The translations under genes were made by a program, and so were the position numbers. From positions 1,116,001 to 1,180,000 of the forward strand of contig NZ_JAFMSU010000001.1 of the NCBI RefSeq assembly GCF_017916365.1: a stretch of 64,000 nucleotides of DNA. The letters run 5' to 3'. The notes below the pieces were generated by a model. It was given only the letters and a program-made list of their open reading frames with translations. It searched no databases and had not been told where the DNA came from. This stretch comes from Rufibacter roseolus. GTDB taxonomy: Bacteria; Bacteroidota; Bacteroidia; Cytophagales; Hymenobacteraceae. Positions 56,787 to 61,543 of the stretch are shown here, one piece after another. Every line of letters starts with the position of its first letter. The stretch's first letter is position 1.

Positions 56787-57689
56787 ATGCTTAAGATTGC
56801 CTGGTCCCCCGAGTACGCGCACCCGTTGCCGGAAAACCACCGGTTTCCCATGCTCAAATACGAGCTACTTCCGCAGCAGCTCCTCTACGAGGGCACCGTG
56901 ACGCAGGAGAACTTTTTCCAGCCCACGCCTTTGCCCGAGGAGCGCATTGTGCGGGTGCATGAACCGGATTACTGGCGACGGCTGCACGGGTTGGAGCTCA
57001 CCCCCTCCGAGATCAGGAAAACGGGTTTCCCGTTGTCTAAGGAGCTGGTGGCGCGGGAGGTCATGATCATGGGCGGCACGGTGATGGCCGCGGAGTTTGC
57101 GCTGGAATTCGGCATGGCCATGAACATTGCGGGTGGCACGCACCATGCCTTCACTGACCGGGGCGAGGGTTTCTGCCTCTTAAATGATAATGCATTGGCC
57201 GCCCAATACCTCTTGGACGAAGGCAAGGCGCAGAAGATCCTTATTGTGGATCTGGACGTGCACCAGGGCAACGGCACTGCCCAGATTTTCACTGATGAAC
57301 TGCGTGTGTTCACCTTCAGTATGCACGGCGGCAACAACTACCCATTGCACAAAGAGAAATCTGACCTGGATGTACCCCTGCCCGATGGCATTGGCGATAC
57401 CGAATACCTGAAGTTATTACGTGAGCATCTGCCCGTCCTCATGGAGCAGGTGAACCCTGATTTCGTGTTTTTCCAGAGCGGGGTAGACGTGCTGGCCTCT
57501 GACAAACTGGGCAAACTAGGGCTCACCCTGGCCGGCTGCAAAGAGCGCGACCGGTTGGTGCTGGAACTCTGCTACCAACGCAGGATTCCCGTTTGCGCCA
57601 GTATGGGCGGCGGCTACTCCACCCGCATCGCAGACATAGTGGAAGCCCACGCCAATACCTTCCGGCTGGCCCAGCAGATCTTCTTTTAA
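56787..57689 (+). CDS. Histone deacetylase-like (class II, AcuC/HDAC superfamily) hydrolase
   Basis: This 300-residue protein has the arginase/deacetylase fold motifs: MNIAGGTHHAFTDRGEGFCLLND (paired catalytic His), ILIVDLDVHQGNGTAQIF (zinc-binding Asp/His), FFQSGVDVLASDKLG (zinc Asp) and MGGGYS. Bacterial relatives remove acetyl groups from small molecules, polyamines or proteins. The actual substrate is unknown. It stands alone, followed by a GTATCAGGTAGCA inverted repeat. Confidence 0.93.
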   Translation: MLKIAWSPEYAHPLPENHRFPMLKYELLPQQLLYEGTVTQENFFQPTPLPEERIVRVHEPDYWRRLHGLELTPSEIRKTGFPLSKELVAREVMIMGGTVMAAEFALEFGMAMNIAGGTHHAFTDRGEGFCLLNDNALAAQYLLDEGKAQKILIVDLDVHQGNGTAQIFTDELRVFTFSMHGGNNYPLHKEKSDLDVPLPDGIGDTEYLKLLREHLPVLMEQVNPDFVFFQSGVDVLASDKLGKLGLTLAGCKERDRLVLELCYQRRIPVCASMGGGYSTRIADIVEAHANTFRLAQQIFF

Positions 57690-58127: not shown

Positions 58128-58871
58128 TTATTTTTTGTTTTGGTGCCGTTTTTCTGCAATCGGGCCAAAAAGAATCTGCCAGCGGAAGGCCCAGCGCCAC
58201 CGCAACCGGTAGCTTTCAATACCTGCCTTGGCCAACGTGCGCTGCCAGTCTGCGCGGGAGAAAGCCCGCAGCACCGAGAGCGGCGCGTCATGCTTTACCA
58301 GATACGAGCGCGAGAACATTTGGGTAAGACTCTTGATGGAATAGTAAGCCAGCGGATGCCGGTGGATGTCATTGATGAGCACGGCCACGCGCACCTGGTC
58401 TTTCAGTTGGGCCAGGAGGGAGGCCAGTGCCGCCTCCGGGAAATGGTGCAGGAACAGGCTACAGATGACAATGTCAAACTCCTGCTGGGCAAACTCCGGG
58501 GAGAAGACATCGGCTTGGCGGTAAGTGATCTCTGGGTAGTCCTGGCTTAGGGCGGTGCTATACTGGAGCATAAAGGCGTTGGCATCTATGCCGGTCAGTT
58601 CTACCTGCAGGTTTTTACTCCGCGCCCAGCGGGCCACCATGCGCAGGGTATCACCGCCACCGCTGCCTAGATCGGCTATTCTAAGGGTGTTTTCGGGAAA
58701 AGAGGCCAGAAATGGATCCTTTATAACCTGATTTAGGCCGTTGCGCACCACGTCATGCCCGCCCAGCCAGACGTTGATGAACTCCAGTTCCTGCAGGTTC
58801 CGGCGCAGGTCATCATTGGCCAGCGACAGGTCATCCATCAGCTCCGGTTCCGTGGACCGCTCGCTAAACAT
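58128..58871 (-). CDS. Class I SAM-dependent methyltransferase of the type III PKS cluster
   Basis: This 247-residue protein has SAM motif I TLRIADLGSGGGDTLRMVARWA, the post-I acidic turn LTGIDANAFML and FDIVICSLFLHHFPE. Its start overlaps the type III polyketide synthase stop by 8 bases, so the two are translationally coupled. In related clusters such a methyltransferase acts on alkylresorcinol or quinone products; that role here is inferred. The last dozen or so codons lie inside an R1 hairpin, so its C terminus (FGPIAEKRHQNKK) is repeat-derived. Confidence 0.9.
   Translation of the reverse strand: MFSERSTEPELMDDLSLANDDLRRNLQELEFINVWLGGHDVVRNGLNQVIKDPFLASFPENTLRIADLGSGGGDTLRMVARWARSKNLQVELTGIDANAFMLQYSTALSQDYPEITYRQADVFSPEFAQQEFDIVICSLFLHHFPEAALASLLAQLKDQVRVAVLINDIHRHPLAYYSIKSLTQMFSRSYLVKHDAPLSVLRAFSRADWQRTLAKAGIESYRLRWRWAFRWQILFGPIAEKRHQNKK
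58137..58172. repeat. R1 dispersed hairpin, copy 24 (inside a coding 3' end)
   Basis: TGTTTTGGTGCCGTTTTTCTG, then AATCGGGCCAAAAAG. It overlaps the last codons of the methyltransferase gene. Confidence 0.65.
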
Positions 58872-59973
58872 AGTGTACTGAAAGCAACATGGATTCCAGG
58901 GTGAGTCCCGGCCCGAAGGCGAAGCTCAGGATGGGCGCCTCGTGGCGACCGGGCTGCAGTTCCTGCCACAGCGCCCGCAGCACGAACAGCACCGTAGCCG
59001 AGGACATGTTCCCGAACTGCCGCAGTACCTGATAAGCATGCCGGTTGTCTTTGGCGGTAAGGCCCAGCGCCTCTTCAATTACCTCCAGGATCTTGCGCCC
59101 GCCCGGATGGATGGCAAACAGCTCAACCTCCTCCAGCTTCAGGTTCAGCTTTTGAAGAAGAGACTGCGTCAATTGTCCGATGCCCTGTTTGATCAAGGCC
59201 GGCACGTAGGAGGAAAGCGTCATCTCAAACCCGAAATCGTGGATGTGCCAGGCCATGTCTTTGTGCCCCGAGGGCGCCAGATCGCAGTGAAACGCGTCCA
59301 CGCGCAGCGAGAGCGGCGACAGCGGTTTAGGGCTCACCAACACGGCGGCCGCACCATCGGCGAAAAGGGAATTGGAGACCAAATGGTCGCTTTGCTGCTG
59401 TTTCTGGAAATGCAGGGTGCAGAGTTCGGTGCAGACGATAAGCACACGGGCGTGGGCATCGGCGCGGCAGATGGTATCGGCTACCTTAAGGGCGTTGAAG
59501 GCTGCGTAACAACCCATAAAGTAGATGCAGGTACGCTGCACCTGGCTAGGTAAGCCAAGCGCCTCTACCAATTCAATGTCCAGGCCGGGGGCGTACATGC
59601 CCGTGCAACTCACCGTAATGAGGTGGGTGATCTGGCTAACGTCTATGTCCGGAACCTGGGCCAGGCACTCCTCCGCGGCCGCCACTGAGAGCGGCAAAGC
59701 ATTTTTGCGGTATTCCTGCATGCGGTCGCCCACGGTAGGGAAAGGCTCCAAGCCGGGCGTGTTGGGGTAGAACTCGTACTCGCCGTTCTGGCGGCCGTAG
59801 TCGGGGAGGGCGGTGTGGCGCTGGTCAATCCCCGATACCCGGTACAGGGCTTTGAGTTTGCGCGTATCATCCTGGTCCAGCTGAAGGGCCTCGGCCATAA
59901 AATCAGCAATCTGTTGCTGAGGAAAAGCATGCGGTGGATTTGCTGTGCCGATGGCGCAGAGGTAACTCTTCAT
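58864..59973 (-). CDS. Type III polyketide synthase (chalcone/stilbene synthase family)
   Basis: The start at ATG 59973 gives 369 residues (MKSYLCAIGTANPPHAFPQQQ), matching family N termini. The upstream ATG at 60105 would add 44 unrelated residues. The catalytic triad is C123 (TVSCTGMYAPGLD), H289 (FAIHPGGRKILEV) and N322 (QFGNMSSATVLF). A homodimer would extend a fatty acyl-CoA or acyl-ACP starter with malonyl-CoA to alkylresorcinols or pyrones. It is coupled to the methyltransferase and lies downstream of a flavoprotein gene. Confidence 0.94.
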   Translation of the reverse strand: MKSYLCAIGTANPPHAFPQQQIADFMAEALQLDQDDTRKLKALYRVSGIDQRHTALPDYGRQNGEYEFYPNTPGLEPFPTVGDRMQEYRKNALPLSVAAAEECLAQVPDIDVSQITHLITVSCTGMYAPGLDIELVEALGLPSQVQRTCIYFMGCYAAFNALKVADTICRADAHARVLIVCTELCTLHFQKQQQSDHLVSNSLFADGAAAVLVSPKPLSPLSLRVDAFHCDLAPSGHKDMAWHIHDFGFEMTLSSYVPALIKQGIGQLTQSLLQKLNLKLEEVELFAIHPGGRKILEVIEEALGLTAKDNRHAYQVLRQFGNMSSATVLFVLRALWQELQPGRHEAPILSFAFGPGLTLESMLLSVHYV

Positions 59974-60164
59974 ATAATAAGTATAAGCAAAAAATGCGGC
60001 AAGATGTTTAAAGAGCCGGATTTGTTTTGCCGGGGCTCTGGGCAGAGGGGGAGTGATGCCCGCCATCCGGAACATACTCATAACCCCGGGTTGGGGTTTT
60101 GGCAAAAGAATAAAGCCCGCGAAAGTCCATTAAAAACATGCAAGCCTCCGACTGACAGGCAAGG

Positions 60165-60203
60165 TTGTTTCAGGTCGATTTTGTAGAAATCAGGCTTAAA
60201 GCA
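60165..60203. repeat. R1 hairpin, copy 25
   Basis: TGTTTCAGGTCGATTTTG, then AAATCAGGCTTAAAGCA. It shares the trailing AGCAGGATGGT with copy 26. Confidence 0.6.
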
Positions 60204-60271
60204 GGATGGTTAATGAATCGGTCGTTTCATCTTATGCATTTCAGGAGTTCACCTTATAGAAACTTCCTCCT

Positions 60272-60347
60272 CGGTCTGTCTCCTGACAGACCGAAATAGC
60301 AAGCTGAAAACTGGTTGTTGCTATGTTGGCCTGTCAGGGGACAGACC
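60272..60347. repeat. GGTCTGTC palindrome pair
   Basis: CGGTCTGTC-TCCT-GACAGACCG (60272-60293) and GGCCTGTC-AGGG-GACAGACC (60328-60347), which also form an inverted pair through their CCTGACAG/CTGTCAGG parts. Confidence 0.7.
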
Positions 60348-60361
60348 AAGGAAATGGTATC

Positions 60362-60399
60362 CGTTTCAGGGCAGTTTTTAGAAAATCAGGCCAAAAGCA
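60362..60399. repeat. R1 hairpin, copy 26
   Basis: CGTTTCAGGGCAGTTTTTAG, then AAATCAGGCCAAAAGC. It lies 26 bases downstream of the flavoprotein stop (minus strand). Confidence 0.65.
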
Positions 60400-60424
60400 G
60401 GATGGTCAATTCGAGACTGGAGAA

Positions 60425-61543
60425 TTAAAAAGGCTTGCCGTGCGTGCGCCGCATGATGGCACCCACAGCGCCCGGAAGGTATTTGAGGCTGGTAACCGCC
60501 AACTCAGACAGAATAGGCTTCCCGAACAGGCGCTGCACCAGGCGGCCGGTCTGTAACCGGGCGCCAAACTGCCGCTGCCAGGCATTGGAGTAATTGTTTT
60601 CCAGTTGGGTTCTGGTTTGCTGGCCGTTCAGGAAGAGCAGCACCTGCTCAGACAGCAGTTTAGCCGAGTGGATGGCCATGGCCATGCCGTTGCCGCACAG
60701 CGGCGTGATGAGGCCGGCGGCGTCACCACTCATGAGCACGTGGTCTTCCAGGCAGGCTTTGGGCGCGAAGGAAATCTCGTTGATAACCTCGGGTTGGGGA
60801 TACAGAAACTCGCTGTTTTGGAGCAGGTCGCGTAGCCAAGGGTTTTTGCCTAGTTCCTGGGCCTCCATCTGGGCTATTGTGCCGTGCTTTTTCAGGTTCT
60901 GGCGAGTAGTAAGGTAACAGAAACAGTACCGCTCCTCCTCAATCGCCGAGACTCCGGCGTATCCATCAGAGAAATTGTGCAGCGCAATGACGTGTTTGGG
61001 CAGTTGCGTACGGATGTGGTATTTGACCGCCAGGTATGGGGAGCGTTCCTCAAAGAAAGAGCGGTTCAGGCGGCGGTCCAGGGCACTGCGCTTACCGTAC
61101 GCTCCAATGACCACCGGGGCCTGCAATTGCTCTCCGGAGGAAAGCGTGACGGTGAAATCATGTCCATCAAAAGCTACCTCGGTGGCGCTTACCCCTTGCC
61201 GGAACGTGACACCCTGCCGCTGGGCTAACTGGAAAAGGTGGTGGTCCAAAGTGTAACGGCTCACCCCAAATCCGCCCAGATCAAGCGGGGCTTGGAGCGT
61301 ACGGCCGGTGGGGGAAGAAAGCAGGAAATGGGTTAAATGAGCAGGTTTCAATATCTCTACGTCCACGCCCAGACTCTGTAGAAAGGGGAGAACCTCGTTG
61401 GAAATATATTCGCCGCAAACCTTGTGGAAGGGAAACCTTTTCTTCTCTACCAGTGTCACCTCTACGCCCTGGCCCGATAGTTGCAAAGCATTCACCAAAC
61501 CGGCTAATCCTCCTCCAATGACAATGACTTTGCGGGTAACCAT
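60425..61543 (-). CDS. FAD-dependent oxidoreductase of the type III PKS cluster
   Basis: This 372-residue flavoprotein has an N-terminal Rossmann motif (VIVIGGGLAGLVNALQLSGQGVEVTLVEK), substrate-side PFHKVCGEYISNEVLPFLQSLG and the second FAD motif LMSGDAAGLITPLCGNGMAMAIHSAKLL. This is the geranylgeranyl reductase/aromatic hydroxylase-like branch. With the polyketide synthase and methyltransferase downstream it forms a set like the srs cluster of Streptomyces, where the flavoprotein oxidises an alkylresorcinol. The gap to the polyketide synthase is 451 bases and carries hairpins, so co-transcription is uncertain. Confidence 0.9.
   Translation of the reverse strand: MVTRKVIVIGGGLAGLVNALQLSGQGVEVTLVEKKRFPFHKVCGEYISNEVLPFLQSLGVDVEILKPAHLTHFLLSSPTGRTLQAPLDLGGFGVSRYTLDHHLFQLAQRQGVTFRQGVSATEVAFDGHDFTVTLSSGEQLQAPVVIGAYGKRSALDRRLNRSFFEERSPYLAVKYHIRTQLPKHVIALHNFSDGYAGVSAIEEERYCFCYLTTRQNLKKHGTIAQMEAQELGKNPWLRDLLQNSEFLYPQPEVINEISFAPKACLEDHVLMSGDAAGLITPLCGNGMAMAIHSAKLLSEQVLLFLNGQQTRTQLENNYSNAWQRQFGARLQTGRLVQRLFGKPILSELAVTSLKYLPGAVGAIMRRTHGKPF

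Follow-up and report, generated by a model that had tools for sequence, protein, structure and literature searches.

Type III polyketide synthase, methyltransferase and flavoprotein genes of Rufibacter roseolus as part of a predicted two-locus pathway to a prenylated phenolic lipid

Introduction

The type III polyketide synthases (PKSs) of a planctomycete three-gene operon related to hidABC gave alkylresorcinols when expressed, and addition of the methyltransferase (MT) and the oxidoreductase led to a single methylation, probably on carbon, with the role of the oxidoreductase left open (PMC10896814). For one cyanobacterial hierridin-like cluster, that of Raphidiopsis, a prenyltransferase has been reported (PMC8086630). 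The combination of a type III PKS with a membrane prenyltransferase is already known in bacteria (Actinoplanes agq; the two are also listed in los): the agq products are alkyl-O-dihydrogeranyl-methoxyhydroquinones, according to the title of Awakawa 2011 as cited, and a membrane prenyltransferase is reported to O-prenylate a small polyketide (PMC4044012). The polyketide quinones of pkqABC have been reported as alternate electron carriers (PMC9927152). For Bacteroidota, we found no description of a type III PKS combined with a UbiA prenyltransferase in literature titles and abstract openings, a scope outside which most subscription papers fall. Here we analyze a trio of genes for a type III PKS, an MT and a flavin adenine dinucleotide (FAD)-dependent oxidoreductase in a stretch of 64,000 nt, called the window below, of the Rufibacter roseolus genome (G000:C1:1116001-1180000; genome of 5.5 Mb in seven contigs).

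We propose, with a probability of roughly 0.6, that the trio is the ring-making and ring-modifying half of a predicted path to a prenylated, methylated and hydroxylated alkylresorcinol or quinone, a path that would be split over two loci in this genome. The PKS would elongate a fatty acyl starter by malonyl units; closure by aldol condensation would give the alkylresorcinol, as the active-site residues suggest. Judging from homologous trios, ring hydroxylation by the FAD enzyme would lead to a hydroquinone or quinone, and the MT, a class I enzyme, would methylate a carbon or oxygen of the ring. In addition, a membrane prenyltransferase of the UbiA family would attach an isoprenoid chain to the ring, a step to which linkage and co-occurrence in relatives point. 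Among these predicted steps that of the PKS is the best supported.

Results

UbiA genes linked to the PKS

In four relatives (L036, L043, L044 and L050) an open reading frame (ORF) of ∼300 aa between the PKS and FAD genes matches PF01040 (UbiA). In R. roseolus the corresponding gene is situated outside the window, at G000:C1:1919665-1920546, about 0.74 Mb from the PKS on the same contig, and is one of six matches over the PF01040 cut-off in the genome; the family was thus matched in all four relatives' proteins tested and in our own. Among named records the R. roseolus UbiA is closest to that of Rufibacter hautae (91%).

Presence of the PKS in 98 relatives was defined as a match of at least 110 bits, which held for 85 genomes; the five weaker of 90 matches (G064, G071, G076, G080 and G084) were dropped as likely FabH-type. 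UbiA and PKS occur together in 83 of the 98 genomes, PKS without UbiA in two (G021 and G087), UbiA without PKS in none and neither gene in 13. Counted by genus, UbiA is present in 25/26 PKS genera and in 0/12 others (Fisher p 4.8e-9, a value that ignores kinship and is no strict probability). All four genes (PKS, MT, FAD and UbiA) are found in 79/98 relatives, and G072 keeps PKS and UbiA, with MT and FAD not found at the cut-offs used. In a second sample of 198 genomes from the phylum, UbiA was found in 35 (E ≤ 1e-25) and PKS in 94 (E ≤ 1e-40), and all 35 UbiA genomes have the PKS. The two samples share six UbiA-positive genomes (G000, G020, G025, G069, G077 and G092).

Linkage is a stronger argument than co-occurrence for a role of UbiA in the pathway. 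Among the 24 relatives from outside the window's family that carry UbiA, 11 have it at a distance of 7-159 bp from the PKS; of the 19 phylum-sample genomes whose UbiA match reaches at least 280 bits, 13 have the PKS no more than 545 bp away (G077 and G092 are counted in both figures). Five genomes from other orders of the same class (L182-L186) have UbiA, PKS, MT and FAD genes side by side, on one strand in four of them and with UbiA divergent in L184. A scan of contigs of named genomes confirmed 581 UbiA loci, of which the best 80, mostly from Hymenobacteraceae, were kept (family and order names were taken from these named loci). PKS and MT are beside UbiA in five of the 80, three of these being Flavobacteriales metagenome-assembled genomes; the FAD gene is also present in four of the five, in one of these four only partially. 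Given this UbiA gene on the R. roseolus contig, a prenylated product is more likely than a plain alkylquinone. No further gene constant beside the four emerged: the neighbors examined vary by lineage (L,D-transpeptidase, type IX secretion system protein, histidine kinase, methionine sulfoxide reductase).

The UbiA protein

The first aspartate motif, N(S/A)xxDxD, is present in 48 of 49 aligned UbiA sequences. The second motif reads QxxxD, not DxxxD, in 49/49, and its residues Q185 and D189 are invariant in 20/20 (the 49 UbiA rows, like the 65 PKS rows used below, include duplicate stretches: L181/L189, and L039/L218 for PKS). A model of the R. hautae protein, built from an 18-row alignment headed by that protein, has a mean predicted local distance difference test (pLDDT) score of 92.1, and its best folds are archaeal UbiA homologues, digeranylgeranylglyceryl phosphate synthase and UBIAD1. 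Identity with MenA was considered and rejected: the NCBIfam MenA model gave 24.6 bits (cut-off 346) in one of four relatives and no match in the other three. In the plasmid collection no match to UbiA was found.

A second methyltransferase-like gene (L075:8557-9339 in G000:C1), with no Pfam match, adjoins the R. roseolus UbiA. Of the 60 family genomes 59 have it. In 58 of these it is no more than ∼1 kb from UbiA, and in G038 the two are on different contigs; the exception, G021, has neither this gene nor UbiA. Outside the family it was found in one of 38 relatives (G072), so that it would be at most a lineage-specific addition to the pathway.

The polyketide synthase

The PKS is the single match over the PF00195 cut-off in the genome. 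Its catalytic triad (C155, H289 and N322) is conserved in all 65 aligned PKS ORFs, and a second cysteine, Cys123, in 61. Position 242 is aromatic throughout (W in 62/65, F in the other three). The best solved relatives are PKS18 (phmmer with the single sequence, 1.7e-50) and Steely1 (profile search); the AlphaFold model (pLDDT 84.0) likewise has PKS18, ranked first, and Steely1 as best folds, at a template modelling (TM) score of about 0.9. At the place of Trp242, Steely1 has Trp, while PKS18, 7cb3 (M. marinum) and 4b0n (Ectocarpus) have Leu. In a single-sequence alignment T144, A148 and C205 of PKS18 correspond to T124, A128 and C185 here. Of these PKS18 residues, T144 and A148 are presumably functional. 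The counterpart of Cys205, C185, is kept in 62/65 ORFs, and C205 of PKS18 is named among the tunnel residues in a review (PMC6274091).

The same review makes Met265 and Gly274 of CUS equivalent to Gly256 and Phe265 of CHS, gives ArsC the same nine-residue spacing (Gly284 and Met293), and states that Trp281 of ArsB directs formation of resorcinol over pyrone, its replacement by Gly abolishing resorcinol formation (PMC6274091). This tryptophan 281 is also highlighted in work on polyketide quinones of Streptomyces (PMC9927152). A PKS of Novosphingobium that shares this Trp and the Met was aligned to CUS, whose Met and Gly stand nine apart; this fits the Met265/Gly274 of the review and thus places W242 at the position of CHS Gly256. 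From residue spacing, rather than from an ArsB alignment, we infer that W242 probably corresponds to ArsB Trp281. Neither ArsB nor ArsC was among the PDB matches listed, which makes the link to Trp281 indirect. Since its active-site residues match those of a resorcinol-forming enzyme, we expect the product of the PKS to be an alkylresorcinol built on a fatty acyl starter.

The methyltransferase and the FAD enzyme

Besides Methyltransf_25, the MT matched Methyltransf_11/31 and others in Pfam; its NCBIfam match to PRK06202 (143.3 bits) is below the cut-off of 243, and no match to carboxyl-methyltransferase families was obtained at E ≤ 0.001 in Pfam and NCBIfam. Homologues of the MT (E ≤ 1e-15) were found in 83/98 relatives, including G076, which lacks the PKS, and homologues of the FAD enzyme (E ≤ 1e-20) also in 83/98. 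The first-pass annotation had read the trio as a PKS whose phenolic lipid is modified by the MT and the flavoprotein; the resorcinol-type residues of the PKS and the MT and FAD homologues near PKS genes on plasmids speak for that outline, which here would form part of a longer pathway. A paralogue of the FAD enzyme (41%) stands beside an isonitrile synthase and a TauD-like dioxygenase on a plasmid of Hymenobacter sp. DG01 (L225), with no PKS in the stretch seen.

Layout of the locus

The three genes are where the first-pass annotation placed them, all on one strand, and PKS and MT overlap by 8 bases (58864-58871; Table 1). The PKS start was corrected: the longest ORF begins with TTG at 60105, and the conserved ATG was taken as the start because matches in relatives begin there.

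Table 1. Features of the trio locus in window coordinates
Feature	Position	Strand	Length	Domain match or detail
FAD-dependent oxidoreductase, likely ring hydroxylase, first of the row	60425..61543	-	372 aa	FAD_binding_3 70.7 bits (cut-off 22)
Intergenic region separating FAD gene and PKS; contains two related hairpins	59974..60424	-	451 bp in this strain	Hairpins 60271-60294 and 60326-60349
Type III polyketide synthase	58864..59973	-	369 aa	ATG 59973, stop 58864; Chal_sti_synt_N 109.6 bits (cut-off 27), Chal_sti_synt_C 82.4 bits (cut-off 27)
Class I S-adenosylmethionine (SAM)-dependent methyltransferase	58128..58871	-	247 aa	Methyltransf_25 51.5 bits (cut-off 27)

The grouping of the FAD, PKS and MT genes is beyond chance. 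In the 30 same-family loci of up to ∼4 kb (our own included) the FAD gene is present in 27, in L003 and L012 truncated by the end of the locus, and the MT adjoins the PKS in 29. All eight longer same-family loci have the complete trio; in one of them (L055:6866-7980, G027) the FAD gene is spread over two overlapping frames, which reflects a frameshift or a sequencing error.

One of the two hairpins in the FAD/PKS gap (60271-60349) is a perfect stem; for the pattern with up to three mismatches the chance expectation is 0.00 occurrences in the window. A gene of the histone deacetylase family is found near the trio, at 56787-57689, and a homologue was seen by eye near the trio in four of the eight longer same-family loci.

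The trio in other lineages

PKS, MT and FAD genes stand together on plasmids of Deinococcus, Psychrobacter, Methylobacterium, Paludisphaera and Mesorhizobium. Identities to the window's proteins in Novosphingobium, Paludisphaera, Psychrobacter and Methylobacterium are 37-51% for PKS, 24-38% for MT and 23-28% for FAD. In Deinococcus they are 43% for PKS and 31% for MT, and the FAD similarity is not significant by BLAST (0.033) and weak by model (36.4 bits). In Psychrobacter the PKS is on one strand, and FAD and MT are on the other. For the plasmid MT matches (32 records), a type III PKS match is within 3 kb in 19 of the 25 rows listed, six Sphingobium rows being uncheckable; for the FAD matches the PKS is within 3 kb in 17 of 27 rows, seven Sphingobium rows being uncheckable and one row not viewed. 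For the plasmid FAD matches of Bernardetia and Hymenobacter DG01 no PKS was found in the stretch seen.

Two loci of family f26 of the same class (L205 in G236 and L207 in G197) combine a more distant PKS with close homologues of the MT and the FAD enzyme (482 and 486 bits to the FAD model). A FabA-like gene is close to the trio in both (detected by Pfam in L205 and by eye in L207), together with a short-chain dehydrogenase/reductase gene in L207; these are perhaps a dedicated starter supply. On the Deinococcus radiodurans plasmid (L062) a PKS-MT-FAD row is followed by genes for a glycosyltransferase and a phospholipase D-like protein, a hint that the phenolic lipid is decorated further. On the Mesorhizobium plasmid (L226) the trio precedes a gene of the cyclopropane-fatty-acyl-phospholipid synthase family, and this set is preceded by an integrase-core gene and followed by a transposase gene. 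A Streptomyces sp. NBC_00490 plasmid (L227) carries a type III PKS with a cupin, an aminotransferase, a class I methyltransferase and an annotated aromatic prenyltransferase, and is another prenylated-polyketide layout. In antiSMASH tables, a type III PKS region in a Hymenobacter has no similar known cluster, and of such regions in five Reichenbachiella strains four are given without a similar cluster; the link of all these regions to the present PKS is by class only.

Discussion

Weighing the proposed pathway

Several observations weigh against a pathway that includes UbiA. In the window's own family UbiA is unlinked to the PKS, though present in 59/60 genomes, and relatedness inflates the co-occurrence statistics. 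The other 16 UbiA genomes of the phylum sample, all of family f41, have weak matches (123-154 bits) that do not adjoin the PKS. The QxxxD motif suggests that the substrate of UbiA may be unusual. Among the 85 PKS genomes, three (G063, G069 and G072) gave no MT match and two, G001 (where the PKS is at a contig end) and G072, no FAD match. Moreover, the trio occurs without a UbiA of this kind in the relatives G021 and G087 and in family f26 (genomes without a match at E ≤ 1e-25), and no UbiA was found in the stretches seen around the Deinococcus, Proteobacteria and planctomycete trios. Such cases, along with the 75 of 80 named UbiA loci kept that hold no PKS, would be expected if PKS, MT and FAD enzyme alone formed a plain alkylresorcinol or alkylquinone pathway of srs/hid type, with UbiA co-occurring for another reason, e.g. 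shared ecology; the planctomycete trios, which yield alkylresorcinols and a singly methylated form (PMC10896814), are in line with it as well. We regard this explanation as somewhat unlikely: UbiA adjoins the PKS in 11 of the relatives and in 13 genomes of the phylum sample (two are common to both), the four genes stand side by side in five genomes of other orders, and UbiA was never found without the PKS in either whole-genome sample (83/83 and 35/35). The existence of the trio without UbiA in f26 means that UbiA adds to a broader module and does not define it.

Other alternatives change the chemistry of single steps. The best NCBIfam match of the FAD enzyme is GG-red-SF (107.1 bits, under the cut-off of 158.8), so its hydroxylating role is not certain; it could be a prenyl-chain reductase of the geranylgeranyl-reductase kind, giving a prenyl-reduced phenol, and the dihydrogeranyl groups in the agq products, as named in the title of Awakawa 2011, would agree with this. 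Yet close homologues of the enzyme occur in the trios of L205 and L207, in genomes without this UbiA, and more distant ones near PKS genes on plasmids of Proteobacteria. Because of the former, a ring hydroxylase is the more likely function, and we consider the reductase unlikely. That the product is an alkylpyrone, as from PKS18, O-methylated by the MT, appears very unlikely to us: PKS18 is indeed the best phmmer match and the best fold, but the Leu that it shares with 7cb3 and 4b0n contrasts with the Trp here, which at its probable equivalent place favors resorcinol; Steely1, the best profile match, also has that Trp, and a hydroxylase would have no obvious role on a pyrone. We thus retain the prenylated alkylresorcinol or quinone as the predicted product.

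Distribution and significance

Its presence in 60/60 sampled genomes of the window's family and in 25/38 from the rest of the order makes the PKS look closer to a core trait than to a sporadic gene of secondary metabolism. If UbiA acts on the PKS product, environmental bacteria of a large group would have an undescribed prenylated phenolic or quinone lipid. Mining of gene neighborhoods would miss such a lipid in the window's family, because there the genes are at two loci; the present analysis names specific genes and the class of compound to be sought, and is relevant to the question whether polyketide quinones have a part in respiration outside Actinobacteria. It is a speculative and rather improbable extension that most of the Cytophagales genomes sampled, and some further orders of the class, encode, beside menaquinone, a second isoprenoid quinone with a ring derived from a type III PKS instead of chorismate, as a near-core metabolite serving as membrane redox carrier or antioxidant.

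Comparison with known systems

The first-pass annotation had compared the locus with srsABC of Streptomyces griseus. The general logic of a PKS with a methyltransferase and an oxidoreductase, common to srsABC and to pkqABC of mycobacteria and Streptomyces, does apply, but the details differ. SrsB is described as an isoprenylcysteine carboxyl methyltransferase (PMC6669644), whereas the MT of the window is a class I SAM enzyme and not of SrsB type; the planctomycete/hierridin trio is the closer match. The FAD enzyme belongs to the FAD_binding_3 family, and SrsC was compared with it by description only; from the Streptomyces and Nonomuraea type III PKS records no srs comparison was obtained. In the parts of the srsABC and pkqABC accounts consulted no prenyltransferase is described.

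Two known systems resemble the proposed pathway in pairing a type III PKS with a prenyltransferase. In agq of the actinobacterium Actinoplanes missouriensis, according to a secondary account (PMC10896814), an alkylresorcinol made by a type III PKS is prenylated and hydroxylated; the likeness is one of description and not of sequence. In los of Micromonospora endolithica, which makes loseolamycins, genes for a UbiA prenyltransferase, a methyltransferase and a type III PKS are listed as adjacent; here too likened by description, los differs in having an acyl-CoA dehydrogenase between MT and PKS and no flavoprotein hydroxylase (PMC7587189).

The hidABC and planctomycete trios consist, like that of the window, of a type III PKS, a methyltransferase and an FAD oxidoreductase. 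The Paludisphaera trio is homologous to it in all three proteins: PKS 38% (1e-76), MT 29% (9e-22) and FAD 26% (8e-20), with E-values that refer to a 15-protein set; HidABC itself is likened by description only. The gene order is mostly MT-FAD-PKS in those systems, whereas here the FAD gene is followed by a gap and then by PKS-MT, and a UbiA prenyltransferase accompanies the trio.

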